Shown: piece after piece, positions 2,356 to 19,575 of the stretch
Layout of the letters: every line of letters begins with the position of its first letter
Position numbering within the stretch: the first letter of the stretch is position 1
Virus record (IMG/VR): IMGVR_UViG_3300027834_000031
Location: 1 to 21,638 of that record
DNA: 21,638 nucleotides
From: a virus
Direction: 5' to 3' (one strand)
The notes under the pieces: model-generated
What the model was told of the DNA's origin: nothing
The model's input: only the letters and a program-made list of their open reading frames with translations
Database searches by the model: none
Position numbers and translations under genes: made by a program

Positions 2356-3255
2356 CTAGGGACTCATGAAGGTATCAAGCTGCGTAAACGTCATTTGCAG
2401 CTCTTCAAGGGCGTCTTCGCGGCGCGAAAGAGACACTTCGTAGGACTGAGCGCGACACAGGACGCGCCCCGTAAAGCCACCTACATCACCTACAAAGGCG
2501 TGCTGGACGGTAAAGACAATTGAGTAATCAGCAGGCACCCCAAACGTCCCATCCTGCGCAGCAACCGCGGCAATGTGGGCCTCAAACCAGCGCTTTAACG
2601 TGCCTGCCCGGTCATCCATAGTGGTGATTCGCAGCACGACAGGCTCGGCTTGGGTAAGCGTGTCTAGCTGCGCACTTCCGGCGCGCACTTTGCCGCCAGA
2701 AACCTCGCTAGGGCCTCGCTCAATATCGGTGCAGAAAAGGTTAAATTCATGGGAGAAGTCGCCAGCCAGCGCGCTTTGCACGGTCAGCAGGAAAAGGTTC
2801 TTTTTGGCACGCTTGGCGTCTACCGCCTCTTGAAAAATGCGCTTGGCTTCAGTGGGAGTAATGCCGCCATACAGCATATTGGCGCCGCCCCAATAGCGAC
2901 CTTGGCTGGACTGCCCCCCTAGCAGGTTGCCTAGCGCGTCACCAGCAAAGCCAGACTCAAGCGCGGTTAAGAGCCCACCTTCAATATCGCCACTGGCAAT
3001 TTGACTAAGCGAATTCGCGCCTGAATTGATCGCATTGCGCATCGTAGGGGGAATATGGCTATTGACGGCACGGCTAACCGCCTGAGACCCCATGGAGGCC
3101 CCGGCCTGAGAGATAGCGCTTGCTAGCTTGCCACCTCCGGCCATGTTTCCAGCCTGATTGCCTAGGCTGGCAGCGCCGCTGCGTATCGCGCCGTCAGTGC
3201 GCCCCAGTAGGTTGCCGCTTTTGCCTGCCGCGCTAATGCTGTCAAAGAGACTCAT
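2356..3255 (-). CDS. Tail tube / baseplate-tube junction-like structural protein (299 aa)
   Basis: This is a 299-aa protein. Residues 1-~125 are low-complexity and rich in Gly, Ala and Ser, with runs such as AGNMAGGGKLASA. The second half is more globular and predicted beta-rich, with segments like NLFCTDIERGPSE, PVVLRITTMDDRAGTLKRWF and a C-terminus ending EELQMTFTQLDTFMSP. That half reminds me of tail-tube-fold proteins, including the tube-initiator proteins of contractile tails; the position just before the tape measure supports this. The family call is from general resemblance only. I chose ATG 3255 because it overlaps the portal stop as ATGA and has a G-rich SD upstream. An in-frame GTG two codons earlier is possible. 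Confidence 0.5.
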   Translation of the reverse strand: MSLFDSISAAGKSGNLLGRTDGAIRSGAASLGNQAGNMAGGGKLASAISQAGASMGSQAVSRAVNSHIPPTMRNAINSGANSLSQIASGDIEGGLLTALESGFAGDALGNLLGGQSSQGRYWGGANMLYGGITPTEAKRIFQEAVDAKRAKKNLFLLTVQSALAGDFSHEFNLFCTDIERGPSEVSGGKVRAGSAQLDTLTQAEPVVLRITTMDDRAGTLKRWFEAHIAAVAAQDGTFGVPADYSIVFTVQHAFVGDVGGFTGRVLCRAQSYEVSLSRREDALEELQMTFTQLDTFMSP

Positions 3256-4811
3256 GGCCACCCCTTGCCGCCGCCTTCATCCTTGGCAGTCTCTGCAAGC
3301 TCGGCATAAATTTCGGCCTGCTCTTCGTCTAGCTGCATGGTTTCGGTCAGGAAGGTCTTCATTAGCTTCTTGGAAGCCCCCATGTCGCGCATGGCCCCGA
3401 TGGCTTGCGCTAAGCCGATACCAACGCCCATGCCATCGTTCAGCGTGCGTTGACGCTCTGCCTCCAGGGCAGAAATGGAGCCATAGAACGAAATGCGCCA
3501 AGGGCGCTCACTGGCCGGGAATACAGTTCCATAGCGCTTGAGCGTGTGCATGTCGATAATGTGGTTGAACGCTTCGGCCAGGGAAACGCGGATCACGCGG
3601 GCGCTCTCGGCTGCCTGTGCGGACGTTCGGAAGAATCCCCCTTCGCCCAGCCCGCCGCTCATCTGGTCAGCAAACCCGATCATTGATAGATCCACGCCGA
3701 TCGCGCCGGAAAGCAGTCGGGCGTGAAGCATCACGTCCTCGATGCTGATATTGTCTGCGCGACCTGACTGCCCGCCTCCCTCAACGCGGGTTAGCTGCTT
3801 TTCGCCAAACACCGGTATGACGTGCCGTACCCGCTCCATGATGGGCTTGCCGCCTTTTACGGCTTCCTCAGCAATCTCCTTTGAGCGTTTCAGCATCTTG
3901 GTGACGGAGTCCATGAAGCTCTTTTGCATGTCCTTCGACATGTCATTGAGGTTCACCGTCAGCATTTGCTCGTCAATGCTGTCCATCCAACGTTGACCCA
4001 CCAGGCCTAACAGGCTTGCGGTCAGATTGTCGTAGGGCTCTTCGGCGGGATAGATCAGCGACCCACCTGCCATGGCGGGCATTAGCGGTAGATCGTTTAC
4101 ATCGTCGGTTCCTAAGGCGACCTTAAGCGACTTCTCAAAGACACCGTGCTGGGGTACCCACTGACTGCGCGGCATCTTCATGCGCACCATCTGCGACGTA
4201 TCCAGGCGCTGAAAATTGCGCTCACCGGTATAGATGGCGTAGCCCACGGTGCGACTGCCTCGATCGAACGGCTGGACCAGCGGAGGGCGTACTAATTCGT
4301 CAACGTAAAGATCCACAACGCCACGGGCGTCGGTATAGATGCGGGCGTAGGAGTCACCGAACACGCTGCCTAAGTAGGCCATTGGGTAAGCGGCACGGTT
4401 AAGTATCGCGGAGAGGTCTTCGCGAATATCGTCGACCATCTTGCCTAGCTGCTCATCCTTTTCGGCAGCAGGGCGCTTTTCGATAAACACAATATCGCCA
4501 GAGGTTTCATGCCCCCCTAGCGCGGACGTGACAAGCAGCTTAACGGCGGACGACACAATGGGGTCGGCCTCCATTTGCGCCCACTTGTCATAAATGGCCT
4601 GTCGTGTGCGCGCCTGCCGATTCCCAGAGGCCAGCAGGCTTGCAACAGTCGTCGTACCGGCACCATAGAGCATGGTGTCGGCTGGCGTGATTTCGTGGCT
4701 CTCGGGGAGATGTTCGTTTTCCCACTTCTTGGCACCGATGCCGAGTCGTGAGAGGAAGCCTCGCCGATGCCCTGAGGGGGATGATTTAGGCATGGCCTGA
4801 TAGTGGGCCAT
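3252..4811 (-). CDS. Portal protein
   Basis: A 519-aa protein of normal portal length. Portals form the dodecameric ring at one capsid vertex through which DNA is packaged and ejected. Portal-like features are the early segment YDKWAQMEADPIVSSAVKLL, the middle part with regular beta segments on peptide binding to the membrane-free core (YAIYTGERNFQRL), and the C-terminal half with GAIGVDLSMIGFADQMSGG followed by SAQAAESARVIRVSLAEAFNH, the typical 'choose the start, then long stem helix' stretch of phage portals. Residues 455-519 are helical and acidic. The SD before ATG 4811 is weak; ATG 4793 six codons later is an alternative. The gene is unusual in having no terminase or capsid gene next to it; its neighbours here are the DarB-like operon and tail genes. 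Confidence 0.75.
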   Translation of the reverse strand: MAHYQAMPKSSPSGHRRGFLSRLGIGAKKWENEHLPESHEITPADTMLYGAGTTTVASLLASGNRQARTRQAIYDKWAQMEADPIVSSAVKLLVTSALGGHETSGDIVFIEKRPAAEKDEQLGKMVDDIREDLSAILNRAAYPMAYLGSVFGDSYARIYTDARGVVDLYVDELVRPPLVQPFDRGSRTVGYAIYTGERNFQRLDTSQMVRMKMPRSQWVPQHGVFEKSLKVALGTDDVNDLPLMPAMAGGSLIYPAEEPYDNLTASLLGLVGQRWMDSIDEQMLTVNLNDMSKDMQKSFMDSVTKMLKRSKEIAEEAVKGGKPIMERVRHVIPVFGEKQLTRVEGGGQSGRADNISIEDVMLHARLLSGAIGVDLSMIGFADQMSGGLGEGGFFRTSAQAAESARVIRVSLAEAFNHIIDMHTLKRYGTVFPASERPWRISFYGSISALEAERQRTLNDGMGVGIGLAQAIGAMRDMGASKKLMKTFLTETMQLDEEQAEIYAELAETAKDEGGGKGWP

Positions 4812-4843: not shown

Positions 4844-5260
4844 TTAGGCGGTGACGCGCTCTTCCATGTCAGGATCTTCCAAGGTGTAGATCGCGCCTGT
4901 ATCACCGTCTAAGACAAACTGATTCGTGCCTACTGCCTGTGTCGCTAGGTAGAGGGTGCGAAACGCGTCTGCCATGACAATCGTTTCAGCGGGGGAGTCA
5001 CCTTGATACGTGGCGCGTACCAACGGGTCGTCCCGCTCGCCAAGCTCGCGATCGCTGTCAATCAGTAGCGCTTTGACTGCCCACCAGTAAGGGCCGTAGT
5101 CGCGGTACCGAAGCGGATCCTTCGCCAAGCGGCGCTCAATAACCCCCAGCGCAAAGCCGGGGAAGTCACTATAGCCGCGGTTTTCTTTGAGCGCGCTCGC
5201 CTTCTGCTGGACTAGCGCCGCAATCTCTTCTTTGTCAAACAAGTGCTCGGTAAGTGCCAT
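4844..5260 (-). CDS. Unrecognised phage protein between DarB-like and portal genes (138 aa)
   Basis: I do not recognise a family. The 138-residue protein is soluble and acidic, with no signal peptide or membrane segment. It has a charged N-terminal helix region (EEIAALVQQKASALKENRG), an aromatic core (RYRDYGPYWWAVKALLID) and a C-terminal beta-like part (NQFVLDGDTGAIYTLEDPD). The ATG at 5260 lies one base after the stop of the DarB-like gene, with AGAGG five bases upstream, so the two genes are probably co-translated. The portal gene follows after 32 bp. The place suggests a virion assembly or head-tail connection role, or a helper for loading the Dar-like proteins; neither can be shown from the sequence. 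Confidence 0.6.
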   Translation of the reverse strand: MALTEHLFDKEEIAALVQQKASALKENRGYSDFPGFALGVIERRLAKDPLRYRDYGPYWWAVKALLIDSDRELGERDDPLVRATYQGDSPAETIVMADAFRTLYLATQAVGTNQFVLDGDTGAIYTLEDPDMEERVTA

Positions 5261-5261
5261 G

Positions 5262-8200
5262 CTAGCCTCTCAGGTTAAGTTCTTGCGCCGCACGCGGATG
5301 GTCGGACGTTAACGCGCTCCATGCTTGGCGCCGGACACGCCACGCCAGGTCTTTGCGCACCCAGCGGCGATAGCTGCCGTACCGAGTGCCATACTCCTTG
5401 ATGCGGTCTTTCCATGCCCGCGTGTCGCCCTCAATCAGCACCATTTCGTCAGGATCTTCACCTGACGCGGGCTCAGGCTCCGCTTCCGGCGCTTCTGCAG
5501 GATCATCGATAGCCTTAGCGGCAACTGCCATCATAGCTTTGCGCTGTAGATGAAAAGGCAAGTATGAATGCGCCTCCCCATCAAAGTCGAACCAGGGCAC
5601 GGTGCTTTCCATATACCGCTCAACACTATTACCAATCTCTTCGCCGGTATCCCCGACCAGCGCGCGATCAAACTGCTCATCATCAATGCTTTCATGGATC
5701 AGCGCTTTTATGGGGTAAGTCTGCCCTGCGACATCTGACAATGACAGCTTCAGGCTGTGGGCTATGGCGTAATCACGCAGCGCCTCCACGCGCGGGGGCT
5801 TCTCGCGAACTACCTCAACGCTATTGTTCACCACAAAATGCATGTCTTCCCAGCGCGTAATGACGGCCTTTTGCTCATCATAGATACGCGCCAGTAAAGG
5901 CGAGTCTTCCGCCTCGCTCGGGCGAATGGGTAGCGGGAAGTGCGGGCTTGGCAGCGAATAATGGTAAACCGGATAGCTCGCTGAAATGTCCGTCTCTCGC
6001 TGCGTGGCCACTGCAGGGCACGCGTCGGAATAAAGCGACACAGTTTTGCCGTTGCGCTCCTCGGTATCTTCAATTTTGGCAGCCGCAAACAAGCATTCGT
6101 CATGCTTGGCCGATCCCGGGTAAGCAACTTCGCCCATCGGTACCAGCGCGTGCAGCGGCGCGGTATCAATATCACCACCCACATAGCCGATCGCCGAAGG
6201 CCGATAGCTGGAAAGGCTCTCTTTGCTGACCACGTAGTAATTGCCGCTAGTGACGATAAAGCATTCTGCGATAACCGGCGTATCGGCAACCATAACACCC
6301 TCGCCATTGGCAAACGCATCGGCAACACCTTTTGGCATGCCGCCAGCTAGGCCCGCTTGCTTGGCGTAGCTCTTCACCGCCTGGCTGCGCATCTGCGAGG
6401 CCATATCAATTTCAGCGTGCCATTCATTGACCAGCTCAGCCGTTTCATTGACCTCAATTTCAACATGGCCATAGCCCAGCCTGCCGCCGCGCAAGGCGTC
6501 GATTAAGTCAGGCGCCCTGTTCTCCCCGCGCTTGGCGCGATCAAGGAAGGCTGTCACCACGGCGCGAACATCAATAGGCGGCTCGCCCTCCATGCGCGTG
6601 GTTGAGCGTGACTGGTAGTCGTAGCTCGCCTTGTAGAACGTTGCCGCTTCCTCGATTTGGCGCTGCAGCCCGCGCTCTTTAACTTCCAGCTCAGCGAGGA
6701 TTGATTCGTTTTTAGCGCGCGCTGACTCGCTCATTTTGGGCTTGGAGAGGCGCGACCGCACTTTCTCGGATTGCCCCATGGCGTTCATGAACTGCCCCAT
6801 CGTACGGGCCACCCAGTCGCTAGCGCGTTCGTTTTCAGTCAAGAACTGATTTTGCTTGGTGATGGTGTCCAGGTTGATACGCTGACGTTCACGGTTAGAA
6901 GTGGCCCGCCGCTCGGCGTCCTTGGCCGCTATCGCCTCTTGTACGCGCGTCACGGCGTCGCCATCCCCTACCGCGTCGATAAGTGCTTCCATCTGCTCGC
7001 GACTCATGCCGCCGCTGATAGCCAGGCTGTCGCCACCATCAGGCTTCATCATTTCGCCTATCCAGTCAGCCTTGCTATTGACCAGAGAGCGCTTCGCCGT
7101 ATCGAAGGTGCCGTCTGCATCGTAGTGATACACGGTGACCTGATCGGTTTTGTTGCCTTGGCGAACACCGCGGCCGTTGCGCTGGGTAAGGCTGTCCGGC
7201 GTCCAGCCGATCGTTAGGTGGTGGATGGCCTGTGTGCCCTTTTGCAGGTTAATGCCCACCTCTGCCTTTTCGTTGGCAATGATCGCGCGGTACTGGTTGC
7301 TTTCCCCCGGTGCGTTGAAGCCGTCCTGTACCTCCATGATCTCTTCAGGGCTGTTATTACGCTGCCCTGTGACGATGGCGATAGCAGAAGAAGGCACGCC
7401 AGCGCGCCGCGACAACAGCCGGCGGATTTTGTTATGCATGCCCAGCAGGTCGCAAAAGATAAGCTGCTTGGCGAAGGGGATACGATTGCCTTCCGAGTCT
7501 ACGCCGCGTGGCGTCGCTGCCTCGGTCTGCACGTTCTCGATCATGGCTGCCAGCTTAGGCGGAATCGATACATCCACCTCAACCTTGGCCTTGTCGGCCA
7601 TGGCTTCAAAGCGATCTTGTGTAGATGAGTTGACGGTATCCAGAACGATAGCGCCGTTTTCAATCCATGCTTTAACCGGCATCTTGTACTGACGACCAAC
7701 CACCTCGCGACTCACGTCACGGATGGTTTTAACGCTTACCGCTTCCTCAGCGGTGGCATTAGGCCCCGGTCGCGTGCGCTGCTCGGTAGGCGGCTTGGCA
7801 TTCCACGTATCCACCAAGGCCTGCGCCTCTTCCATCTGCCCTTCACCAATCAGATAGCGAGAGACGCGAGCATCCAGGTCAGGGTCCGCAATCAGCATGG
7901 TCATCTTGTTAATCAAGTTAAAGGGATGGCCGATCAGCTCCATTGACTCCCCAAACTTGCCCGCAACGCGCTCATAAGAAGCAGCATCGCCGCGGTTCTG
8001 GCCACGCTCTGCCAGGGCATCAGCGGCGTAGCGGTATGCCTCCTTGTACTCTTCCAGCCGGACAATGGTTTCTTGCGGTAGCTGGATGGTGCTGGCTCTT
8101 TCAGGCGCGCTCGGCACCTTGATTTGCCCGCCTACGTCATTAGCGTTCTTGATGGTGGCTACTTGACGCAGTGCACCGCGAAGCATTTCGACGTTATTAA

Positions 8201-11200
8201 GGCCCTTAAAGACGTTAATCGCGCGGCTTTCACCGTCGATGGTTTCATCATCTTCATTCTCAATTTGGCATACCGCGTCCATGAAGCCGTCAGCGCCGGA
8301 CGTACCCACAAACAGATCGTTAACGCGATCGTGGCCCACCGCCAACGCCATCATGGAGTACATTTCAAGCGGGCTATTGGTGATAGGTGTTGCGGTCAGG
8401 GTGATAACGCCATCGCCACGGCTTCCACTGCCACCTCGAATGGCCCACGCCTTAGCCTGCGCATCTAGCCCACGAATCGATGCGGGGGAAAGAGACAAAT
8501 ACTTGCCGCCCGTGAAGTCCACGGTAGTCGCAGAGTTCTTGTAAGCGTGCGCCTCATCAATAACCAGGGAGTCGACGCCCATGTCTTCCAGGTACGGCGC
8601 AGCACCGCTCTTCTTGCCCAGCACATCGACAATGGTGGCTGCCTTGCCTTTGGCGCGCTCATCAGCTTTGCGGTCTTCGCTTTCGGCAAAGGAGCTATCC
8701 GCACTGCGCATGTATTGTTCGTAGCGCTTGATCGTCTCGCCACGCAAGCGGATACGCTGAAACGCTTCCATGGTCATGAATATCTTGCGGTGCCGGTTCT
8801 CCATTATGCGGCTTAGGTCTTCATCGTAGGCCGCTGAGTCTACCTGCCCATCGCGAAGCCCCACGTAGAGGCAGTCATCAATGCTGGCATAGGCCTTGGC
8901 GCTCTCCTTTTGCCAGTTGGATAGCACCGAATTGGGCACTACAAAAAAGGTTTTCTTTTTTACGCCGATCGACTGCGCGTACTGGGTGACTGCCAGTGAC
9001 GTAAAAGTCTTACCTAAACCAACATCGAACCCGTTAATGCCGGAGAAGTCCCGCGCGCGTGAACGTACGTAGGCATTTTGATAGCCGTGCAGCTCAAGCT
9101 CTGGATTCATACCCGGAATCGATAAGGGGCTTTCGTCCTCTGGCTGTGCAAAGCGAAGCTTTTTAGGGTCGTTTGCTTGGCTTTCAAGCCGCGATACGAC
9201 GCCGCTGTTACCGCGCGCCCAGCCGTTAAACTGCTCATTGGCCTTATTGACCATAGCGCGCAGCTCGCGAATGCCTTCAGCGTCACCCATGTCCAGCTTG
9301 GTGCCGCCCAGCGTGATAGTGCCGTTCTTGAGGTAGGCGCTAACGCGACGAATCAGCTTTTCACGGTCGGTTAACTGGCTGCCTGGGATATCGAACTCAA
9401 CGCGCGGTTCACTGGTCTTCTCGTCAAAGGTGACGACGGCTCCAGGATGCACGAAACGGCGAAGGAACTCGGCCTTCTCCTCCATCGTGACGTAAGGACT
9501 AAAGAGGTTGAATGTGATGCGCGACACGTCAACGCGGTCAATACGCTCGCTGGCGGCTGCTTTTTGTCGCTGAAGCTTGGCGCGAAGAGCATCATTGGGC
9601 GCTGACGCCATCTCTGCATCAATGCGCTTAACAAAGTCGCCATAGCTGCCAATGTAGTAGTCATCGGCACGGCATATCTGACTGCCATCGGCAGACACGC
9701 ACCAGTCGTCCGACTCAAACGGGCTAAAGCTATCGCCTAGCACTGTTCGGGCTTGCTCCAAGCTGACCCAGCTAGACTGATTCTCATATAACAGGCCTTC
9801 AAAGCCATGCTCGGCGCTCACTTGGGCAACCGGCGCATCTTGCACATCACCACGCCATAGCGCGCTGTAACCGCCCTTGCGACCATAGTGAGTCGTTAGC
9901 TCGCCAAGCCCGCGACGTAGATCCCCATCCACACCCTTGATGCGCTTAGCGGCAGCTGCGTGTCGCTGCATTGCTTCAGAAAGCTTGGCATAACCACTTA
10001 GGAAGTCGGTACCGCTGCCCCTGCCGTTCTCATCTAAAACCTGCGTAACGGCAAGCCCCACCAGCCCAGGCGCCCACGCACGCTCGCGCGTATCGCTATC
10101 AGGCAGCTTGTCTAAGGCGGAAAGCGCAGAGGCTAGCCAACCGGGCATGTCCAGCGCTTGCGAGCTGTCACGCATGTACTGGCGAAGCGTAACGGCATCG
10201 TCATAGCTCATACTGGCATCAAAGGCTGCATAGGCGTCTTTGAAGCGAGATAGAAGCGCCTGCCCTTCGGTGTCGTTACCACTGGCAGCAAGCGCCTGCC
10301 ATTCGCCACCGGTAAGCACTAACGTCTGTCCCGCCTGGGTGATCGTATCCCCTTCGCGGTAAACGATCGGCTGTGTCTCTGACGCCTCCAATAGCGCCCA
10401 GTCGACCCGGCTGCCGGGTAGGCGGCGAATCATCTTAGCCACCTCGGGAATGCTTGCCGGGTTCTTTACGCGGTCTACATCACGGAACTTCTCGGGATCC
10501 TTGGGCACGAACTCACCCAGAATGAAGCGCTTCCCTTCGCCCTTGAAATACTGCCCCTCAACAAAGTCGCTCCACATGACGTTGGCGGAGGAAAGCGTGT
10601 CTGGCGATTGCTCCTGCAGTTCGGCTATCTTCTCGGCAGCCTCACGGCCGTATTTGCGGAAAAAGATAATGTCGGTGATCGTGTCGGCATCAGCAGCACC
10701 AAAGACGCTATTGGGAAGTCTGAAGGCGCCTAGAAACTCCCCTTTGATGCTTGCCCGCTGTCGCAACTTAACCTCAGCCCCACCTCTCCCCGACACGCAG
10801 CGCGGCGGCACCAGGAAGGCTGCTAAGCCGCCTGGCTTCAGCTTATCCAGCGACCTCAGGATAAAGTAGGCTTCCAGGGTCTCTTTCTGATACTTGGGAT
10901 CTAGGTTCTGATTGCCACCGCGATCAGCAACGGTGCCAAACGGTACGTTGGTAACGACAGCATCATAGCTTTCGTCTGGCGTCGCGGCGGCCACCGCCTC
11001 AAAGGCGCCAATGGTTGTCGTGTAGCCGGGGCCTGAATTGACCAGGTCGTTAATGCTGCCAGACGTTTCATCGAGCTCCACCGCATCAACGGCCGCATTG
11101 CGTGGCGCGGCCGCACCAAAGACACCGGTACCGCTAGCAGGATCCAGCACTTTGCCGCCGCTAAAGCCCATTGTGCCCAAGGCGTCCCAGATACCCTCAG

Positions 11201-11699
11201 CGATCGGCGTGGGGGTGTAATACTCGTAGGCAGAACCTTTCTTGCCATCCGCGCCCACCAGCGCGCCACCGTTACCCGAATAGCCAGCCAGCACGGCCCG
11301 GTCGTCGTCGGTCAGCTCATCACGCGAGAGCTCGCCAGACTGCACCCTGCTAAGCAGCTCAATAGCGGCGTCGTTGGCTTTTTGGCGCTGTCCTTTGGTG
11401 CGCTTCTCATCATGACTATAAAGCCCGACCGTGGCCCGACGCGGCGCCTCGACAGGCTCGGGCGCATCGCGCCCATGCTTCATTGCCTTAGCAGGGTCAG
11501 CAGCCAATGAGGTGGCCTTTAGCTCTGCGCGCACTTCGTTGGCCCGCTTAACCAGCTTCAGCCTTTCGGCCATGCCAGAGAAACCTTTTGGCAGTGCAAT
11601 CAGGTCTTTTCTGACCCGGCCAAGCTCGGAGACCAGTCGCAGCCTTGCCATCATCGCGTGAGCGCCGCCACCGGAAGAGGCATCGTCAAAAATCTTCAT
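5262..11699 (-). CDS. darB-like: DarB-like anti-restriction polyvalent protein: N6-methylase-like domain plus SNF2-type helicase (2145 aa)
   Basis: Residues ~180-350 look like an adenine-N6 DNA methyltransferase: SAM-binding motif I KVLDPASGTGVFG (~183-195) and catalytic motif IV in the form NVPFG (~251-255). A superfamily-2/SNF2 helicase follows: Walker A DVGLGKT (~892-898), DEAH box VIDEAHAYKN (Asp ~1048), motif III TATP (~1102) and motif VI RNGRGVRQGN (~1503-1512). Residues ~1540-1700 are charged and coiled-coil-like; the C-terminal ~450 residues I do not recognise. The same methylase-helicase order and size are known from phage P1 DarB (about 2250 aa), a virion protein that protects incoming DNA from type I restriction in cis. 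The same job here is inference. The ATG at 11699 has a perfect AAGGAG six bases upstream. It is second in an operon after the DarA-like gene, 14 bp away. Confidence 0.8.
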   Translation of the reverse strand: MKIFDDASSGGGAHAMMARLRLVSELGRVRKDLIALPKGFSGMAERLKLVKRANEVRAELKATSLAADPAKAMKHGRDAPEPVEAPRRATVGLYSHDEKRTKGQRQKANDAAIELLSRVQSGELSRDELTDDDRAVLAGYSGNGGALVGADGKKGSAYEYYTPTPIAEGIWDALGTMGFSGGKVLDPASGTGVFGAAAPRNAAVDAVELDETSGSINDLVNSGPGYTTTIGAFEAVAAATPDESYDAVVTNVPFGTVADRGGNQNLDPKYQKETLEAYFILRSLDKLKPGGLAAFLVPPRCVSGRGGAEVKLRQRASIKGEFLGAFRLPNSVFGAADADTITDIIFFRKYGREAAEKIAELQEQSPDTLSSANVMWSDFVEGQYFKGEGKRFILGEFVPKDPEKFRDVDRVKNPASIPEVAKMIRRLPGSRVDWALLEASETQPIVYREGDTITQAGQTLVLTGGEWQALAASGNDTEGQALLSRFKDAYAAFDASMSYDDAVTLRQYMRDSSQALDMPGWLASALSALDKLPDSDTRERAWAPGLVGLAVTQVLDENGRGSGTDFLSGYAKLSEAMQRHAAAAKRIKGVDGDLRRGLGELTTHYGRKGGYSALWRGDVQDAPVAQVSAEHGFEGLLYENQSSWVSLEQARTVLGDSFSPFESDDWCVSADGSQICRADDYYIGSYGDFVKRIDAEMASAPNDALRAKLQRQKAAASERIDRVDVSRITFNLFSPYVTMEEKAEFLRRFVHPGAVVTFDEKTSEPRVEFDIPGSQLTDREKLIRRVSAYLKNGTITLGGTKLDMGDAEGIRELRAMVNKANEQFNGWARGNSGVVSRLESQANDPKKLRFAQPEDESPLSIPGMNPELELHGYQNAYVRSRARDFSGINGFDVGLGKTFTSLAVTQYAQSIGVKKKTFFVVPNSVLSNWQKESAKAYASIDDCLYVGLRDGQVDSAAYDEDLSRIMENRHRKIFMTMEAFQRIRLRGETIKRYEQYMRSADSSFAESEDRKADERAKGKAATIVDVLGKKSGAAPYLEDMGVDSLVIDEAHAYKNSATTVDFTGGKYLSLSPASIRGLDAQAKAWAIRGGSGSRGDGVITLTATPITNSPLEMYSMMALAVGHDRVNDLFVGTSGADGFMDAVCQIENEDDETIDGESRAINVFKGLNNVEMLRGALRQVATIKNANDVGGQIKVPSAPERASTIQLPQETIVRLEEYKEAYRYAADALAERGQNRGDAASYERVAGKFGESMELIGHPFNLINKMTMLIADPDLDARVSRYLIGEGQMEEAQALVDTWNAKPPTEQRTRPGPNATAEEAVSVKTIRDVSREVVGRQYKMPVKAWIENGAIVLDTVNSSTQDRFEAMADKAKVEVDVSIPPKLAAMIENVQTEAATPRGVDSEGNRIPFAKQLIFCDLLGMHNKIRRLLSRRAGVPSSAIAIVTGQRNNSPEEIMEVQDGFNAPGESNQYRAIIANEKAEVGINLQKGTQAIHHLTIGWTPDSLTQRNGRGVRQGNKTDQVTVYHYDADGTFDTAKRSLVNSKADWIGEMMKPDGGDSLAISGGMSREQMEALIDAVGDGDAVTRVQEAIAAKDAERRATSNRERQRINLDTITKQNQFLTENERASDWVARTMGQFMNAMGQSEKVRSRLSKPKMSESARAKNESILAELEVKERGLQRQIEEAATFYKASYDYQSRSTTRMEGEPPIDVRAVVTAFLDRAKRGENRAPDLIDALRGGRLGYGHVEIEVNETAELVNEWHAEIDMASQMRSQAVKSYAKQAGLAGGMPKGVADAFANGEGVMVADTPVIAECFIVTSGNYYVVSKESLSSYRPSAIGYVGGDIDTAPLHALVPMGEVAYPGSAKHDECLFAAAKIEDTEERNGKTVSLYSDACPAVATQRETDISASYPVYHYSLPSPHFPLPIRPSEAEDSPLLARIYDEQKAVITRWEDMHFVVNNSVEVVREKPPRVEALRDYAIAHSLKLSLSDVAGQTYPIKALIHESIDDEQFDRALVGDTGEEIGNSVERYMESTVPWFDFDGEAHSYLPFHLQRKAMMAVAAKAIDDPAEAPEAEPEPASGEDPDEMVLIEGDTRAWKDRIKEYGTRYGSYRRWVRKDLAWRVRRQAWSALTSDHPRAAQELNLRG

Positions 11700-11705
11700 T
11701 CCCTA

Positions 11706-11711
11706 CTCCTT
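11706..11711 (-). promoter_or_regulatory. Shine-Dalgarno site of the DarB-like gene
   Basis: AAGGAG, six bases before the ATG at 11699, inside the 14-bp gap after the stop of the DarA-like gene. It is much stronger than the SD of the gene in front and supports the chosen start. Confidence 0.8.
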
Positions 11712-11713
11712 GG

Positions 11714-14700
11714 TTAAAGTTCTTCAGTGGCGCTCAGCATGGCCCGCTCGTAAGCGGCCCCCGCTTGCTCAATCATCTCTTCCGTTTCGGCGTCTCCGGC
11801 CTGGCGTTCCATAATCGCCAGTATCTGGTCGGCAAGGTCAGGGGAGTGAATGTCGGGTACGGTGCCGTCAATGACGGACTGCAAGAACTCTCTGTCTTGG
11901 CGGCGCATGGTTTCCTCTTGGCTTTCGGGCGCTTCAGGCGCGTCATTAGTCGCGGCACTCTGCGCGGCATCAGGATCATTCCCGATCGCCTCAGGGCCCA
12001 CGGGTGCTCTCTTGTCGAACAGCGGGCTAAAGCGCTCCCAGTCATCGACCGACTTCCACACGGCATTGCGGTTGGTGATAGCGGGCTTGTCCCACGGCTT
12101 TTTCATTTGCTCGTTCAGCCATGCCAGCAGGACGCCACCTAACACAGGGTCACGCTTGGCGCGGGTTTTGATCTTGTTGGTGATTGAGCTGACAAACAGC
12201 GAGCGCTCCATGCCCGGCATCGTCCCGGCATCGATCCCCTTGATGGTGCCTAGCGAGTTTGTAAAGTCGCGGGTAGTGCTTAGGAATTCATCGCTTTCAA
12301 TGAGGCTGCGCGCAGCCTCAAGGGCGTCACCTTGCTCGACAGGCTCCCCCTCTCCTGCTGGCTCTTCGCTATCCGTGGTGGGCTCGGGCTCTTCACTGGC
12401 GGTAGCAGGCACGCCAGCGCTTGCGGTTGGCAACCAGGCGTTCAACTCGTCAACGGTCATTTCCTGCACGCTGCCCATGTTCCAGCCAGCGGGATAGTTA
12501 GAGAGATAGCCTTGCTCAGCGGACTCCTTTGACTCAAAGCCCAGCATTACCTTGTGCTCGTCAAATTCGCCGTCCTTGCCGACTTGGTTAATAACGAATA
12601 CGCGCTCGCTTTCCAAATCGGGGCCAATGAACACGTCGACTTCATCACCATCGGCGCCCTTGGTGCCCTTGATGTAGCCATAGTCATGAGCGATCGACAC
12701 CGACCACTGCTCACCCTCTTGTGTAGTGCTAGAGCGTTCGCTGCCTTTAGGGTTTTCAATGGCAATATCCAGCCCTAAGAGGGAAATATCGCCTTTGGCA
12801 TACTCGCCGGATTCCTTTTCTTCGTCGGTAGGCTCGGTATCGGTGGATTGCCGCGCTTGCTCAATCTCCTCTTCGGTAGGCGCTGGCGGCTCGGAGGAGG
12901 CGCCAAACATATCTAGCGACTCAATGGCGTAGCTGCCTTCGCCGTACTCCTTATCCAGCTCCAGATTGGCCGCTGCGATAATCTGCTCAAGCGTGGCTTT
13001 CTGGCTCTCGCCAAACATATCGACGGTCTGCCCGCGCTCGGCCTCTTTGCGCACGAACTCGGCCATTGCGCGGAAAGCGACGCCTAAGCGCTTACCGCTG
13101 CGGTTGTTCTGATTGATAAACATCGCCATGGCAGCAGTTGCCGGCGGAATATCGCCGAACAGGCCAAGCTGACTAATCACCTCTTCCACACTGGCGCCGT
13201 TCGCCTTCGCCTGACGCACAAGGTTGGTGGCCTCAATGATGGCTTGAATGGCCTGCTCGTTTAGCGAGGTCTCAACGCTGTCCACGATCTGGCTAGTTAA
13301 GGCATCAGTGCCCGCCTGATCGGCGGCTTGCGCGCGGATGAATTCAGGTGCGCTGACGTTGAGTGCGCTGATAACGTTGGCCACCTCCGGCTTGCTGGCG
13401 TCCGCCGTTAGCTCCAGGAGGCGATCATCGTTGTAGGCTTTAGAAAAGATGGCTGCCTGTACGCGGGCAATGAGCGCCCCCGTAGGGTTTCCGTCAGTCG
13501 TCATGTACTGGGCAGCTTCAGTGTCACCCAGCGACTGTAGAAAGCCGTTGATGAAGTCACGATTGGCAGCTGATAGCAGGTTGCCATCGTCGGCAAGCTT
13601 GGAAATGAGCGCTTCATCCAAGCGATCGGCATCGGCCCGGGCCTTCTCGGTTCCGGTCATGCTCAATTTGTCGTCCTGGTTGGCCTCTACGGCAAACTCA
13701 CGGCGGTCAATCTGCGACGTACGCACGCGCACAAGCACCGGCGCCGTCATGGCCTTGATGCGTCCCGTATCGAGGTTGTAGTGGTGCGCCTCTTCCTCTA
13801 GCCACTCACGGTACTCGTCGGCGCTTCCGCTGCGATAGGCTTCCTGTATCGCCATTGTGCGACCGTTGCCCGACTCGACTACACGATCCGGCCCCACGAT
13901 GGGCGCTCCAGTGTCAGCACGGCGTGTGCGTCCAAGACTGTCGGGGTCAAGTTGCCTAGCCGTTTTCTTCACCCAGGCAATAGATGCGTCACGCCCACGA
14001 TCCCGTGGCTGCAATTCTTCCGGAAAGGCGGGGTTGGGGTCGCCATTAATGTCATGAGAAGCGATTAGCTCGCTCGCTTCTACGACGGTAAAGCCTGTCT
14101 GCACCTCAGTGCCTTTAGCGGTCTTAACAATGTTTTCCGCACCTTCGGGGGCAAGCTCGCCATCTTCATTGACCCCGATTAGCGTCTCGCTAGGCGTGAG
14201 CTCACCGGGCTCGGGCTCATCGGGTACGACTTCCGGCTCGGGGGGCTGCTCTTCGCTTACGGGGGTAACCTGGCTAAGTGGTTTAGGGTCGAAATACAGA
14301 TCCAGCTCAACGCCAGCGCCGGTTAGCTCGTCTACGCCAATGTAGCCAAGCTCGGGCTCGCCTGTTCCGGCATTCGCCAGCCCAAACGCTTGCTCGGTAC
14401 CGTTGCCCTTGGCATCTTTTTCAGTGATGTACCAATCGCCACCACCACGGAAGTAGTGCAGATAGGCAGTGGAATCATCGCCTTTACCATCTTGCTCGTA
14501 GGTTTCGGCCATGCCGTCGATGATGCTGGCCAGCACCTTGGCGCGGTCGATGTAGGCGGCGGACTCTTCGCCGTTGCGAATAACGTCCGCCATGGCGCGA
14601 TACTGCTGACGCGAAAGCCACGGACGCAGATCGTCTAAGAGGCTTAACCCCTCCTTGGCGGTTATCGGCTTGGGCGCGTTCAGGGCTGCATCTTCGGTTT

Positions 14701-15367
14701 CGATATTGGCTATTTCAATCTGCTTGGTCAGGCTGTCTAGCTCGGTCTCAAGCTCGCCAATCTCACCCTTTAGGCCGTCGATGTACTCAAGCCGCTCGGC
14801 ACGCTTTTGGTTCATGCGCGCGAACGTTTTAGAGTTCTTTTCAGCCAGCCCCATGATGCGGCGCGCTACCTGCCGGATGGGTACGTCGCTGCCACGCTCG
14901 GGTGCCACGACGATGGTGATATCTTTCTTATTCAGCAGCCATTTCCAGCTAATGAGCTCATCGCTGGGCTTGAGTGCCTTCGCAGTGCCTGCATCGGGGT
15001 TGTGGAACATGATGGTGACGGTTTGGCCGTCGCTTAGCTCAAAGATGGCCGCAACGTTAATCACGCCTTGCCGCTTAAAGGGGCTGGATACCTGCGAGGC
15101 CGCAACGCTGACGCTCTTTCCAGAGGCGTTCATGATGCGCTCAATGGTCGTAATCTTGCGGCTCAGCATGGACCCGGTCGACACCAGGGCGTCTAGCTCA
15201 TAAACGGCGTCAGCGTCTTCCAGGATGTCGTCTAGCGTCACGCTGTCAAAGATCAAGCCATCTTCAGAGTCGGAGCGGCGAATACGGTAAAGCAGTTGAT
15301 CCAGCGAGATGCCCAAAGGCACACCGCTTTGGTCGTTCCAAAGAACGGGAGGTGATGAAGCTGTCAT
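11714..15367 (-). CDS. DarA/DdrB-like polyvalent protein with pyrophosphatase-like domain (1217 aa)
   Basis: Several domains are strung on acidic, Pro/Glu-rich linkers. Residues ~10-195 match the 'defence against restriction A' N-terminal domain as I know it: IFELSDGQTVTIMFHNPD, ELISWKWLLNKKDITIVVAP and VARRIMGLAEKN. A coiled coil (KGEIGELETELDSLTKQIE) follows. Residues ~425-640 look like the DdrB-type ParB-superfamily domain, with RDRGRDASIAWV, GPDRVVESGNGRTMAIQEAY and FAVEANQDD. Residues ~855-968 resemble the inorganic-pyrophosphatase domain of phage polyvalent proteins: AHDYGYIKGTKGADGDEVD, VDVFIGPD and HKVMLGF. Residues ~1020-1100 (KTRAKRDPVLGGVLLAWLNEQ) are unassigned. In P1, related proteins are packaged and injected to block host restriction; that role here is inferred. 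I chose ATG 15367 because AGGGG lies seven bases upstream; ATG 15418 in the same frame has no SD and would add 17 residues. Confidence 0.75.
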   Translation of the reverse strand: MTASSPPVLWNDQSGVPLGISLDQLLYRIRRSDSEDGLIFDSVTLDDILEDADAVYELDALVSTGSMLSRKITTIERIMNASGKSVSVAASQVSSPFKRQGVINVAAIFELSDGQTVTIMFHNPDAGTAKALKPSDELISWKWLLNKKDITIVVAPERGSDVPIRQVARRIMGLAEKNSKTFARMNQKRAERLEYIDGLKGEIGELETELDSLTKQIEIANIETEDAALNAPKPITAKEGLSLLDDLRPWLSRQQYRAMADVIRNGEESAAYIDRAKVLASIIDGMAETYEQDGKGDDSTAYLHYFRGGGDWYITEKDAKGNGTEQAFGLANAGTGEPELGYIGVDELTGAGVELDLYFDPKPLSQVTPVSEEQPPEPEVVPDEPEPGELTPSETLIGVNEDGELAPEGAENIVKTAKGTEVQTGFTVVEASELIASHDINGDPNPAFPEELQPRDRGRDASIAWVKKTARQLDPDSLGRTRRADTGAPIVGPDRVVESGNGRTMAIQEAYRSGSADEYREWLEEEAHHYNLDTGRIKAMTAPVLVRVRTSQIDRREFAVEANQDDKLSMTGTEKARADADRLDEALISKLADDGNLLSAANRDFINGFLQSLGDTEAAQYMTTDGNPTGALIARVQAAIFSKAYNDDRLLELTADASKPEVANVISALNVSAPEFIRAQAADQAGTDALTSQIVDSVETSLNEQAIQAIIEATNLVRQAKANGASVEEVISQLGLFGDIPPATAAMAMFINQNNRSGKRLGVAFRAMAEFVRKEAERGQTVDMFGESQKATLEQIIAAANLELDKEYGEGSYAIESLDMFGASSEPPAPTEEEIEQARQSTDTEPTDEEKESGEYAKGDISLLGLDIAIENPKGSERSSTTQEGEQWSVSIAHDYGYIKGTKGADGDEVDVFIGPDLESERVFVINQVGKDGEFDEHKVMLGFESKESAEQGYLSNYPAGWNMGSVQEMTVDELNAWLPTASAGVPATASEEPEPTTDSEEPAGEGEPVEQGDALEAARSLIESDEFLSTTRDFTNSLGTIKGIDAGTMPGMERSLFVSSITNKIKTRAKRDPVLGGVLLAWLNEQMKKPWDKPAITNRNAVWKSVDDWERFSPLFDKRAPVGPEAIGNDPDAAQSAATNDAPEAPESQEETMRRQDREFLQSVIDGTVPDIHSPDLADQILAIMERQAGDAETEEMIEQAGAAYERAMLSATEEL

Positions 15368-15463
15368 CGCATAACCCCTATGGTTGGCAGGAAGGCGCGT
15401 TGCGCGCATAGGGGTCATGCTATGGGAGAGATAAGGCGTTAATGCGCCTGCTTTTCCTGGTGG
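15368..15463 (-). other. Non-coding leader between PAAR gene and DarA-like gene
   Basis: A 96-bp gap, one of only two sizeable ones in the window. Besides the inverted repeat it contains a short AGGCG-CATTAA-CGCCT stem-loop near 15433-15450 soon after the PAAR stop. No T-run follows it, so I do not call a terminator. I see no convincing -35/-10 pair. Confidence 0.5.
15370..15419 (-). promoter_or_regulatory. Inverted repeat covering the SD site of the DarA-like gene
   Basis: Left arm 15370-15382 (CATAACCCCTATG) and right arm 15407-15419 (CATAGGGGTCATG) are complementary at 12 of 13 positions, separated by 24 nt. In the minus-strand mRNA the downstream arm contains the AGGGG SD (15375-15379) for the ATG at 15367, and the upstream arm contains an alternative in-frame ATG at 15418. 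The loop holds a smaller GCGC-GTT-GCGC hairpin. It could be an RNA hairpin hiding the SD or a DNA operator; the sequence does not decide which. Confidence 0.6.
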
Positions 15464-15754
15464 TTACCCGCCTGCAAAGACATCGGGGGAGCCCGCCGCG
15501 ACAGCAGACCCACAGTCCACGGCATCGCCCACACGACCCAAGGGCTGCCCATTGACGTTAACGCTGCCTGAGCCGCTAGCAAGCGCGCCTGCATGGCAAA
15601 CCGGTGTTGGGTTGCAGTGCGTCTCCCAGCCATCGCCAACGCGGTGGGCTGGGATGCCATTAATCATGACATTGCCGCTACCACTGGTGCTGTTGCGCGG
15701 CGGAAAGCCACCGTGCCCTGTACAGCTATCCCCTAATCTAGTCACGGCGGGCAT
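15464..15754 (-). CDS. PAAR-domain spike-tip protein (96 aa)
   Basis: A small Gly-rich protein with the PAAR layout: MPAVTRLGDSCTGHGG, then SGSGNVMINGIPAHRVGDGW, HCNPTPVCHAG, SGSVNVNGQPLGRVGDAV and SPDVFAGG. The paired short beta repeats (VMINGIPAHRVGD and VNVNGQPLGRVGD) and the conserved His and Cys residues that bind a metal at the apex are typical. PAAR proteins form the sharp cone on the tip of the central spike of contractile tails and help pierce the outer membrane. The ATG at 15754 is chosen because AAGGAG lies eight bases upstream (15763-15768); it overlaps the end of the gene before it by 17 nt. Confidence 0.9.
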   Translation of the reverse strand: MPAVTRLGDSCTGHGGFPPRNSTSGSGNVMINGIPAHRVGDGWETHCNPTPVCHAGALASGSGSVNVNGQPLGRVGDAVDCGSAVAAGSPDVFAGG

Positions 15755-16232
15755 CGACTTCACTCCTTAGCCGGTCTTTTCCGGCTGTCCAGTCTTGGTG
15801 AATTTCAATAAGGTAAGAGTTATAGGCTTGGGTGCCATCGGCCAGGCTGGCTATTACGTCCAGTCGAAAGGCGCGCGTTTGCTCACGGCTGGGACGAAAA
15901 TCAACCAGCTCCTCAGCGCTCTCCGGAAGGCTCTCCCAGTCAGGCGCGCGAACAATCTGGCCATCCTGCAGGTAGTCGATAAATTCAATGGGGAAAAGCC
16001 CGGCTAGGCTTGGCGATCGAATAGTGAGCTCGCTTGGCCCGCCTTCGACAACCAGTACGTCCTGCTCAGGTGTAATGCTACCTTCATAGCCGGTCACCGC
16101 GATAGGTGCAGGCGCGCCCGTTAAAGGGTCGACGCCCTCCACCTGAACGCTAATCGCGGTAGAAACAGGCCCCGCCGTCTCGGGCAGGCTAAACAACACC
16201 TCTGGCGATGGTGACCATGTAGCGGTTGGCAT
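15738..16232 (-). CDS. Unrecognised baseplate-region protein (164 aa)
   Basis: No family recognised. The sequence is beta-rich and acidic, with Ig-like or fibre-like character: VLFSLPETAGPVSTAISVQVEGVD at the start (shown here only for its alternation of hydrophobic residues), VLVVEGGPSELTIRSPSL in the middle and FRLDVIASLADGTQAYNSYL near the end, closing with a charged tail. No signal peptide or membrane segment. It begins 5 nt after the stop of the coiled-coil gene, without a clear SD, and its end overlaps the PAAR gene. Position between spike and spike tip suggests a minor baseplate or spike-associated protein. Confidence 0.55.
   Translation of the reverse strand: MPTATWSPSPEVLFSLPETAGPVSTAISVQVEGVDPLTGAPAPIAVTGYEGSITPEQDVLVVEGGPSELTIRSPSLAGLFPIEFIDYLQDGQIVRAPDWESLPESAEELVDFRPSREQTRAFRLDVIASLADGTQAYNSYLIEIHQDWTAGKDRLRSEVDARRD
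15763..15768 (-). promoter_or_regulatory. Shine-Dalgarno site deciding the PAAR start
   Basis: AAGGAG with eight bases to the ATG at 15754. A GTG at 15763 in the same frame overlaps this SD and is therefore an unlikely start. Confidence 0.75.
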
Positions 16233-16237
16233 AAGGG

Positions 16238-16723
16238 CTAGGCGGCCGCTTCAGGCTTTAGCTCGGAAAGCTGCTTGCGGGCATCCTCGACCGCCTCTTT
16301 CAGAGCGTCGCGCTTTTCTTCCAGTCGCTTCTCCATGCGCGGCGCTGCCGTGGTCATTCGCTTGGGCAGCTTCACCTTCGCCTTAGCCATGCGCTTTTGA
16401 AATGCACTCCGGCCCTGATCCATGGCTCGTATGATTTCGCCGATTGCCTTGGCATGGTCGTCCTGGTTGGCCATAGGTATAACCTTGCGGTTTAGCATGA
16501 CTTGGTAGATATCACCCGGTCGCTTAATGCGCAGCTTGACCACTTGGCTGTCGCTAAACGTGATACTGATTTCCCGGTAACTGACGCCGCTTGCGCGCTT
16601 GATGCGCGGATCCACGTCAACGCTCACGACATTGGCGCCCGCACGCTTGAAATACTTTTCGAGCACCTTTACCGACTTGTCTTTTTGCGTCAGATCATCA
16701 AACGAAAATAGTAGTTTTGCCAT
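16238..16723 (-). CDS. Small basic coiled-coil protein, possibly Dar-associated (161 aa)
   Basis: The N-terminal two thirds form a compact alpha/beta region (FKRAGANVVSVDVDPRIKRA, YREISITFSDSQVVKLRIK, PGDIYQVMLNRKVIPMANQ). The last third is a lysine-rich stretch (KRMAKAKVKLPKRM) followed by a long charged helix (KRLEEKRDALKEAVEDARKQ). It does not look like a standard tail protein. From memory, proteins with the signature 'GDIYQV.LN.K..P..NQDDH' occur next to DarA-type polyvalent genes in other phages, so I suspect it belongs to the Dar-like module, but I cannot confirm this here. ATG 16723 has AAGGAG eight bases upstream, overlapping the spike-gene stop codon. Confidence 0.6.
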   Translation of the reverse strand: MAKLLFSFDDLTQKDKSVKVLEKYFKRAGANVVSVDVDPRIKRASGVSYREISITFSDSQVVKLRIKRPGDIYQVMLNRKVIPMANQDDHAKAIGEIIRAMDQGRSAFQKRMAKAKVKLPKRMTTAAPRMEKRLEEKRDALKEAVEDARKQLSELKPEAAA

Positions 16724-16735
16724 TTGGCGGACTCC

Positions 16736-17206
16736 TTAGTTGAGGTTGATCATGCTGGCTAGCTGTGTGATATCGCCTGGCGTTAAGGTGACCGTTGAGC
16801 TGCCCACTTGCAGCGTGATGCTGTCTTTGGCACTGACGTGTACCAGCCCGCCCGACTGCAGGCGCATCTCGGCATCTGTCAGCAACTGCATGTTGGCGTG
16901 GTGCCAGCGTCGCCAGCCGGTGTCGTTGCCAACGGTAGGGTTTCGCCAGCCGGTGATAAGCGGATAGCGCGGATCGCCCTGAATGAACTCTACCCACACC
17001 TTGTCGCCCCCTAATATCTCAATCTCGGTCATGGTCTCATGCCGGGATTTGTCGCCAATGGGGTACTCAATCTCGGCAACAAGGCCGCTCTCAGCCCCGT
17101 CAGTGATGCCGGGTATGTTGACCGTGCACGTTCGTGACGCACCATCGTAGCTCTCAATCACCGCTGGCCACTTGCCCGACAGCAGCCCGCTGCCATTAGC
17201 GCTCAT
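16736..17206 (-). CDS. Baseplate spike protein, gpV/gp45-like (156 aa)
   Basis: Residues ~10-100 fit the OB-fold domain of contractile-tail spike proteins (P2 gpV, Mu gp45, T4 gp5 N-terminal domain): WPAVIESYDGASRTCTVNIP, EIEILGGDKVWVEFIQGDP and RYPLITGWRN. The C-terminal ~50 residues are a short beta-helix-like stretch of alternating hydrophobics (GLVHVSAKDSITLQVGSSTVT) that would form the trimeric needle. It follows the hub-like gene and precedes the PAAR tip gene by two genes, the usual functional grouping. I chose ATG 17206 because it overlaps the hub stop as ATGA and has GGAGG eight bases upstream; a TTG seven codons earlier is less likely. Confidence 0.8.
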   Translation of the reverse strand: MSANGSGLLSGKWPAVIESYDGASRTCTVNIPGITDGAESGLVAEIEYPIGDKSRHETMTEIEILGGDKVWVEFIQGDPRYPLITGWRNPTVGNDTGWRRWHHANMQLLTDAEMRLQSGGLVHVSAKDSITLQVGSSTVTLTPGDITQLASMINLN

Positions 17207-18102
17207 CGCTCCCACCTCCCCAGCCAAACGCGCGTGAACTGCTCATTTTCGCCACCATCGGCACTGGGTGCGAACAGGCTGGCGACCGTCATGGCGACCA
17301 GGGGCTCTCCCCCGATAACGCCGATCAGGTCACCCGCCGCAATCTCTTGGGTGTATTTCAGTCGTGTGGTTTTAGTCAGCACCAGGCAGCCGGTCATGTT
17401 GCGCAGTGAAATAGCATTAGCGCCTGGCTGATAGCGCGCGGTACGCGCCTTGCCGCGATTGCCGTAAACAAATTCGCCATCGGCATCGACGCTATAAAAC
17501 GTGGGTATATCGTGACGCTCTAAAAAACCTGATTGCACGTCATCAGAGGCGGAATCAACGATCTCCTCGATCGGCTCTTGATCAAACAACGATCCCAGCG
17601 CAATAAACGCCAGCCTCCCATCCCGCCACCGCACTACGCCGCCCGCCTCCTGAAGCGCGCGCGCAATATGATAGGTGTGCGCTTCGCCAGCCAAGCACGT
17701 AAACCGCGGTACAGCGAAGTCGCCCTCAATGCCGCGCAAGGTGGCCCCGCACGCGCGGTAAATGTCAGAAAGCGTCGCGTTATGCTTGATAACGGCGCGC
17801 TCTTTGATAAAAGCAACTGGCGTCACCGGCTTTAGCGTGGCAACCAAGCGAACGTAGCCCGCCATGCTCTCGCCTTGCATGCGCGCCTGCTGGATATGCT
17901 CACTCTTAATAATCTCCAGCTCATCACCGCCGTAGGTAGTGATAGAGCGCCCCTCGGCAAACTCAGCCACGGTGTCGGTATCGACACGGATGTCGGCTTC
18001 TAGCGTCAGTGGTATGGGTACCAAGTCAGAACGAAGCACCGCGCGGCGAATAAAGTCACCCCTTATCCGCTGGTCGCCATTTTCACCGAAGTAGAGTTCC
18101 AC
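17203..18102 (-). CDS. Baseplate hub-like protein (299 aa)
   Basis: A 299-aa soluble protein with no membrane segment. It opens with MELYFGENGDQRIRGDFIRR and a beta-rich first domain (LVPIPLTLEADIRVDTD), has a central helical segment (TYHIARALQEAGGVVRWRDG) and ends with beta segments (TTRLKYTQEIAAGDLIGVIG) and RVWLGRWER. The size, the position directly before the spike gene and the overall pattern match hub proteins of the gp27/Mu gp44/P2 gpD type, which hold the spike at the centre of the baseplate. The call rests mainly on order. The start is a GTG at 18102 with a poor SD, one codon-length after the preceding stop, which points to coupling. Confidence 0.55.
   Translation of the reverse strand: MELYFGENGDQRIRGDFIRRAVLRSDLVPIPLTLEADIRVDTDTVAEFAEGRSITTYGGDELEIIKSEHIQQARMQGESMAGYVRLVATLKPVTPVAFIKERAVIKHNATLSDIYRACGATLRGIEGDFAVPRFTCLAGEAHTYHIARALQEAGGVVRWRDGRLAFIALGSLFDQEPIEEIVDSASDDVQSGFLERHDIPTFYSVDADGEFVYGNRGKARTARYQPGANAISLRNMTGCLVLTKTTRLKYTQEIAAGDLIGVIGGEPLVAMTVASLFAPSADGGENEQFTRVWLGRWER
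17215..17219 (-). promoter_or_regulatory. Shine-Dalgarno site deciding the spike start
   Basis: GGAGG with eight bases to ATG 17206, inside the end of the hub-like gene. It supports the inner ATG over the upstream TTG at 17227. Confidence 0.75.
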
Positions 18103-19364: not shown

Positions 19365-19575
19365 GCCTATCCCCTTCTGCTTTGGCGTTTGCGCTGGCGT
19401 TATCCGCCGCTTGGCGCTGCTCAATTCGTTCTTCAGACGTATCAGCACGGCGCTTTTGCTTCTCCGCGCGCTCTGTAGCCGCTTCACTCTTGCGCTGGGC
19501 GCCTTTCAGCAGCACCCCCAGCACCAAGGCAACAAAGCCCATAACGGCTGCCAGTAATTGCCAAATCTTGCTCAT
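19285..19575 (-). CDS. Rz-like: i-spanin, Rz-like (96 aa)
   Basis: One N-terminal transmembrane segment (residues ~5-24, LLAAVMGFVALVLGVLL) is followed by a long, highly charged coiled-coil region (RKSEAATERAEKQKRRADTS and further), the usual shape of an inner-membrane i-spanin. It would pair in the periplasm with the Rz1-like lipoprotein encoded within its 3' end. It is short for the family. The ATG at 19575 overlaps the stop of the gene before it as ATGA and has a GGAGG-type SD. The pairing and overlap with Rz1 are what make the call firm. Confidence 0.85.
   Translation of the reverse strand: MSKIWQLLAAVMGFVALVLGVLLKGAQRKSEAATERAEKQKRRADTSEERIEQRQAADNASANAKAEGDRHVESVRNEARSGQRDHFESGWVRDED

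Follow-up and report, generated by a model that had tools for sequence, protein, structure and literature searches.

The closest described counterpart of the genes considered here is the Dar (defence against restriction) system of phage P1, in which six Dar proteins are carried in the virion (PMC9024508). DarA and its partner in the head, Hdf, bind as pairs to the inner capsid and to DNA, set the size of the head, and are needed for the entry of the other Dar proteins; incorporation follows the order Hdf/DarA, DdrA, DdrB, DarB, and Ulx (PMC12810830). P1 DarA has been resolved from residue 70 to 382, and density near its alpha-helix and penton-binding domains was left unassigned (PMC12810830). 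A reporter carrying the first 30 residues of P1 DarB goes to the capsid (PMC9024508), and P1 DarB-Ulx is known for protection against EcoB and EcoK. We analysed a 21,638-nucleotide fragment of a phage (virus record IMGVR_UViG_3300027834_000031, positions 1 to 21,638; hereafter the window) that carries homologues of these proteins. We explain the locus as a P1-type Dar cluster condensed into one late gene run, and we place the probability of this explanation as a whole at roughly 80%. Virion packaging and DNA protection in this phage are well-supported predictions from homology with P1. All genes under discussion lie on the minus strand, and the cluster and its boundaries are as follows.

16736-17227, minus strand: baseplate-spike-like gene, upstream boundary of the cluster (weak Phage_base_V/DUF2345 matches)
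16238-16723, minus strand: Hdf homologue, 161 amino acids (aa), DarA_N domain (Pfam DarA_N 1.3e-21; PHROG 1620, Hdf-like, 2e-39)
11714-15418, minus strand: DarA::DdrB::InPase fusion, 1234 aa from the first ATG
14255-15256, minus strand: DarA head-docking core of the fusion, aa 55-388, matching P1 DarA by sequence and fold
12914-14197, minus strand: DdrB/ParB-like part of the fusion, aa 408-835
12428-12835, minus strand: polyvalent-type inorganic pyrophosphatase domain of the fusion, aa 862-997 (Pfam InPase 1.1e-50)
11717-11914, minus strand: conserved C-terminal motif of the fusion, aa 1169-1234, LQSVIDGTVPDI...
5262-11699, minus strand: DarB homologue, 2145 aa, N6-adenine methylase and SNF2-type helicase
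11502-11699, minus strand: tandem-helix tag of DarB, aa 1-66, two RLKLVxELxxIRxxL-type repeats
4844-5260, minus strand: Ulx homologue, 138 aa (PHROG 1629, Ulx-like, 5.7e-27)
3252-4811, minus strand: portal, P1 Prt homologue, downstream boundary of the cluster (PHROG 1497, portal, 6.5e-158)

The initial annotation had described two giant genes of the P1 Dar type on one strand. Both genes exist (2145 aa, and 1217 aa if the fusion is read from ATG 15367), the domains named for them (DarA_N, DdrB/ParB, pyrophosphatase, N6-methylase, and SNF2) all match above the Pfam cut-off, and the P1 Dar identification was right, as judged from family matches, pairwise P1 matches, and the match to P1 DarA by sequence and fold. 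The genes are not a pair, since the cluster is a four-gene set of Hdf, the DarA::DdrB::InPase fusion, DarB, and Ulx, followed by the portal, and the span first given, 5262 to 15367, was too small.

The fusion places DarA_N (2e-39), ddrB-ParB (4e-36), and InPase within one open reading frame (ORF) inside a late-gene region. Its start is more likely at ATG 15367, which has the better Shine-Dalgarno-like sequence, AGGGG. In pairwise alignment, fusion residues 44-339 are 29% identical to P1 DarA 28-346, and the core matches the sequence of the solved P1 DarA (PDB 9ukm_I) at 9e-20. A Foldseek search with an AlphaFold2 model of the core, with a mean predicted local distance difference test score (pLDDT) of 69.5, also returned 9ukm_I as the top PDB match (E 5.7e-11); the superposition is loose, with a template modeling score of about 0.3-0.5, and the fold match serves only as support for homology. 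A model of the core together with the DdrB part (pLDDT 55) was too poor for use. Residues 408-828 are 41% identical to P1 DdrB 11-434 (E 2e-92, pairwise). The HExxH motif and C-terminal metallopeptidase of P1 DdrB (HELGH) are absent from the fusion, and the metallopeptidase is a separate gene in Xanthomonas phage Rb1 (PQ569993), the nearest sequenced phage. The InPase domain matches the InPase part of the portal gp19 (PDB 9b41).

Hdf matches the solved P1 Hdf (PDB 9ukm_H) at 2.5e-10 and is 32% identical to P1 Hdf and 52% to that of Rb1 (pairwise). DarB (Pfam N6_Mtase 1e-9 and SNF2 5e-9, both above cut-off) is 39% identical to P1 DarB in the methyltransferase (MTase) part and 26% in the helicase part (E 1e-61 and 2e-64), and 45% identical to Rb1. 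Ulx, which adjoins DarB, is 37% identical to P1 Ulx over 70 aa and 49% to Rb1 (pairwise), and the portal, which matches the solved P1 Prt (PDB 9ums_C) at 4e-41, is 63% identical to Rb1 and 24% to P1 Prt. The catalytic motifs of DarB are intact (DPASGTG and NVPF in the MTase; GLGKT, DEAH, TATP, and QRNGRGVRQG in the helicase) and are conserved over 31 homologues; because these motifs have been retained, they argue for an enzymatic contribution to protection. In some relatives DarB is spread over two ORFs (L042:12911-19420 and the near-identical L043) or several (L035), through either frameshifts or real splitting.

In transcription order the window runs from holins and endolysin through a spanin-like gene, tail tube and tail genes, and the baseplate-spike-like gene to Hdf; then come a 164-aa ORF, a doubtful 73-aa ORF, the DarA fusion, DarB, Ulx, and the portal. 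The gap between the fusion and DarB is 14 bp and that between DarB and Ulx is 1 bp. The G+C content (57.5-58%) and GC3 (G+C at third codon positions) of the cluster equal those of the neighbouring genes, and a promoter scan gave no useful signal, with one weak site, fewer than in shuffles. The tight, same-strand placement first proposed stands, but the 'PAAR tip' gene said to adjoin the giant genes does not; the gene in question is baseplate-spike-like by weak matches and adjoins Hdf. Because lysis, tail, baseplate, and portal genes share the strand and the cluster is homologous to P1 virion proteins, late expression and packaging would be expected.

The order Hdf-DarA-DarB-Ulx-Prt recurs in many relatives, with Hdf-to-Prt synteny over dozens of phages. 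Close relatives were found in Halomonas salipaludis (826-kb contig) and Ectothiorhodospira mobilis (132-kb contig), in contigs whose lengths fit integrated prophages. A homologue of Pro, the P1 prohead protease, was present in all 10 relatives' genomes tested, some of them with a DarB about 80% identical to that of the window, and a search with the Rb1 capsid protein as query found a gp23-type homologue in 11 of 11 records, P1 included (P1 E 5e-17). Ulx was found only alongside DarB, being present in 26 of 27 loci with DarB and in none of the 7 without it (Fisher p 1.5e-6, for loci that are not independent). In one relative (L029), Ulx (21554-21961) lies on the strand opposite to DarB.

The part of the fusion behind the DarA core is variable. 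Eight architectures were distinguished among 60 ORFs with a DarA core, with InPase N-terminal, C-terminal, or absent and DdrB/ParB present or absent; ORFs were read from the first possible start, which may have made some N-termini overlong. Even where DarB is 79-81% identical to that of the window, relatives differ in the length of the DarA protein (1199 to 1556 aa) and have extra segments on both sides of DdrB, towards the core and towards InPase, with the DarA core about 76-81% identical. Other members of the DarA family carry LPD3, LPD29, PBECR1, or MutS_I domains. The last 66 residues are kept across DarA fusions with different payloads, and this motif also occurs on small proteins downstream of DarA in loci L058 and L061. 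The fusion of P1 darA and ddrB, with a payload that differs between close relatives, is a new arrangement. As a separate observation, L045:9920-16102 encodes a 2061-aa DarA protein with MutS domain I (1.5e-18), LPD3, and a possible PBECR3.

At the N-terminus of DarB a helical motif occurs twice, as RLRLVSELGRVRKDL and as RLKLVKRANEVRAEL. Searches with a simple pattern for this tag gave no match in shuffled ORFs, and the matches among 4154 ORFs of 100 aa or more all belonged to Dar clusters. A profile built from DarB tags alone matched eight ORFs that are not DarB (E 2e-14 to 7e-24). In the DarB-less loci L022, L028, L033, L039, and L049, the tag stands at or near the start of the ORF in the DarB position (2e-14 to 7e-24), and the slot ORF of L030 was matched at 3e-8; these six are LPD1 proteins with an HE-x-x-H/D-like motif, assigned by Pfam in L022, L028, L039, and L049 and by sequence in L033 and L030. 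The slot ORF of L015 (8e-19) has a PBECR1 domain by Pfam. The profile also matched two small ORFs in the DdrA slot (Rb1 and L048) and, more weakly, metallopeptidase ORFs in L044 and L023 (about 3e-6 to 2e-5). Beyond the tag, the DarB, LPD1-type, and PBECR1-type proteins have no significant mutual similarity. The surrounding genes are nevertheless close, Hdf, DarA, and portal being 70-93% identical in the closest pairs with differing slot proteins. Between L028 and L046, Hdf is 90%, the DarA core 79%, and Prt 93% identical; between L015 and L014, Hdf is 93% and DarA 93.5% identical over 834 aa, with the tag DNA 78% identical over 194 bp.

The tag occurs in 21 of 25 genome records, usually once, the exception outside the Dar cluster being one Rb1 ORF. 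Among about 570 bacterial genomes it was found in two, both known Dar prophages, and an IMG/VR search with single tag peptides yielded one further locus (L105), with an LPD1-type cargo. The Rb1 exception (L119:1197-1574; tag 7394-7540 of the Rb1 record, residues 65-118) is an unannotated 125-aa ORF far from the Rb1 Dar cluster and possibly a further tagged protein. The LPD1-type slot protein of L033 (7442-10276) has an extra C-terminal stretch that by eye resembles a PBECR-type nuclease, and the C-terminal half of the L015 cargo has homologues without the tag near or inside ORFs of about 3000 aa in other phages. Because P1 DarB is packaged via its first 30 residues, the DarB tag is a good candidate for the signal by which the proteins of an interchangeable cargo slot are docked or packaged, a role suggested by its position and by its sharing between cargos. 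We consider it an even bet that Hdf and the DarA core form a constant dock, that the short N-terminal tag admits the protein behind it, and that Dar is one loadout of a modular head-delivery system of P1-related phages, in which DarB-Ulx is exchanged at its locus for metallopeptidase-like or nuclease-like proteins and the DarA payload domains are swapped as well.

The proposed mechanism is modelled on P1. Hdf and the DarA core would bind the inner prohead surface and form a platform. The DdrB part, separate in P1, where it helps DarB enter the head, would sit on this platform by covalent attachment, and DarB would dock via its N-terminal tag, assisted by Ulx, a helper specific to DarB. The P1 head-entry order is mirrored in the gene order of the window (Hdf, DarA-DdrB, DarB, Ulx). 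All Dar proteins would be ejected with the DNA, which DarA and Hdf would coat; type I restriction enzymes, and possibly BREX enzymes, would be kept off it by the methylase-helicase DarB, perhaps aided by the ParB and pyrophosphatase domains. Protection would act in cis on the packaged DNA, as in P1. The docking part (Hdf, DarA core, and tag) would stay constant, whereas the payload of DarA and whichever protein follows the tag would be interchangeable.

Several points weigh against this explanation or parts of it. The capsid and protease genes were not seen in the window, which is a fragment, and the AlphaFold2 models are overall of low to moderate confidence. The tag was not found in P1 or D6 and has no match to the P1 DarB N-terminus. 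In L015, no portal gene was found downstream of the PBECR1-type cargo (after 14144), so this contig may represent a prophage that has decayed or been rearranged, and it is a weaker example of a working swap. Plasmid tests of darB have been shown to be confounded (PMC11109961), and in P1 itself protection could come from methylation or from physical shielding, neither being favoured here.

Alternatively, the injected proteins, with their nuclease, pyrophosphatase, metallopeptidase, and PBECR1-type domains, might target the host cell or competing elements instead of shielding DNA, with the Dar frame as a general effector-loading device. The payload and slot proteins of relatives do include PBECR1, LPD1/HExxH, and InPase domains, which belong to the polyvalent effector repertoire as described in the text of PMC5512222. 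However, the slot of the window holds the classical DarB-Ulx, with its known role against EcoB and EcoK in P1, and we regard effector loading as possible but rather unlikely for this locus. It is also compatible with the Dar explanation, with protection here and other functions in relatives.

A second alternative concerns the tag, which might derive from DdrA and, once fused to DarB, have an activity of its own instead of being a packaging signal. Small tag proteins occupy the DdrA slot in Rb1 (L002:35480-35944), in L048, and by eye in L058, and DdrA of P1 and D6 aligns in register with the tag; no separate DdrA was found by blastp in the window. An hhalign comparison of tag and DdrA scored 20.6 (P 0.004), and none of 100 column-shuffled controls scored higher than 17.5. 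However, the hhalign probability is just 8.6%, DdrA reaches no better than E 2.5 with tag profiles, and a docking role would be compatible with a DdrA origin. Homology of the tag to the P1 DdrA N-terminus is thus a suggestion and a lead, and we doubt that the tag is a DdrA activity in place of a signal.

The cluster could alternatively serve mainly in head assembly (size determination or capsid stability), with antirestriction secondary or lost. This would fit the size-setting role of P1 DarA and Hdf and their requirement by the other Dar proteins (PMC12810830), as well as the constancy of the DarA core and Hdf beside a varying payload. A purely structural role leaves unexplained, however, why the DarB methylase and helicase motifs are intact over 31 homologues. 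In addition, DarB is replaced in some relatives while the Hdf/DarA/Prt frame is retained, and we consider this alternative improbable. It is highly implausible that the giant ORFs arrived as a mobile element with no function in the virion: their size and payload vary between relatives, but their composition is that of the neighbouring genes, Hdf-Prt synteny extends over dozens of phages, and the spacing is tight. Horizontal insertion of the cluster was rejected on composition and synteny, and the initial description of the genes as 'inserted' finds no support in the same evidence (G+C and GC3 as in the neighbours; recurrent Hdf-DarA-DarB-Ulx-Prt order).

For the P1-type Dar explanation, the kind of cluster is already known; what is new is the fused platform and, behind a shared tag, the swappable slot, of which no description was found in the main text of open-access literature. 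These parts bear on the entry of Dar proteins into the P1 head and on the way they protect DNA. Because the fusion places DdrB directly after the penton-binding domain of DarA, DdrB is predicted to lie directly on DarA near the density unassigned in the 2026 P1 cryo-electron microscopy study, and is our candidate for that density. The shared tag offers a concrete docking-signal candidate and predicts that the unrelated slot proteins of relatives are virion cargo. Constant docking genes and a constant start sequence with swapped enzymes suggest a modular loading of proteins into phage heads. The predictions from fusion and tag are testable in laboratory phages.

The remaining genes of the window include the following.

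21315-19856, minus strand: holins and endolysin
19022-17203, minus strand: tail tube and tail genes

A compact lysis cassette at 19285-21315 (two holin-like genes, endolysin, and spanin-like gene) precedes the tail genes; lydA/lydB, the lysis genes of P1, are immediately upstream of hdf. The baseplate-spike-like gene is 58% identical to an Rb1 gene annotated as a baseplate protein. The 164-aa ORF between Hdf and the DarA fusion (15738-16232) has a weak match to PHROG 1168 (unknown function) only. Downstream of the portal lie a tail-tube-like gene and then a tape-measure/lysin-like gene, a partial ORF of 784 aa at 2-2353 that is truncated by the window end and has mixed tape-measure and endolysin-type PHROG matches.

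Among known systems, the internal proteins of T4 enter the head by a short N-terminal signal (T4 IPIII, as cited in PMC9024508). The tag proposed here is a tandem helical motif on unrelated proteins of one slot, and its proposed likeness to the T4 signal is one of function. Polyvalent proteins, as described in the text of Iyer et al. 2017 (PMC5512222), are multidomain virion-linked effectors with DarA-N, DdrB-ParB, InPase, MTase-helicase, PBECR, and LPD domains, as here; a constant dock with exchangeable payload and a tag across cargo were not seen in the searched text of that paper. In Rb1, InPase stands at the DarA N-terminus, no DdrB-ParB part was detected, the tag is on a small 154-aa protein and not on DarB, and the portal is far from the Dar genes, whereas in the window it comes right after Ulx. 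In P1, the genes form two runs, hdf-darA-ddrA-ddrB and darB-ulx, with prt divergent, whereas the window has one cluster. P1 also has separate DarA, DdrA, and DdrB, where the window has DarA::DdrB::InPase without the metallopeptidase part, and the window DarB has an N-terminal tag that was not detected in P1. Common to both are homologous Hdf, DarA core, DdrB/ParB region, DarB, and Ulx and the linkage to portal and lysis genes, and relatives of the window have homologous Pro and capsid proteins. Five of the six P1 Dar components are thus represented in the window, with DarA and DdrB as one fusion.

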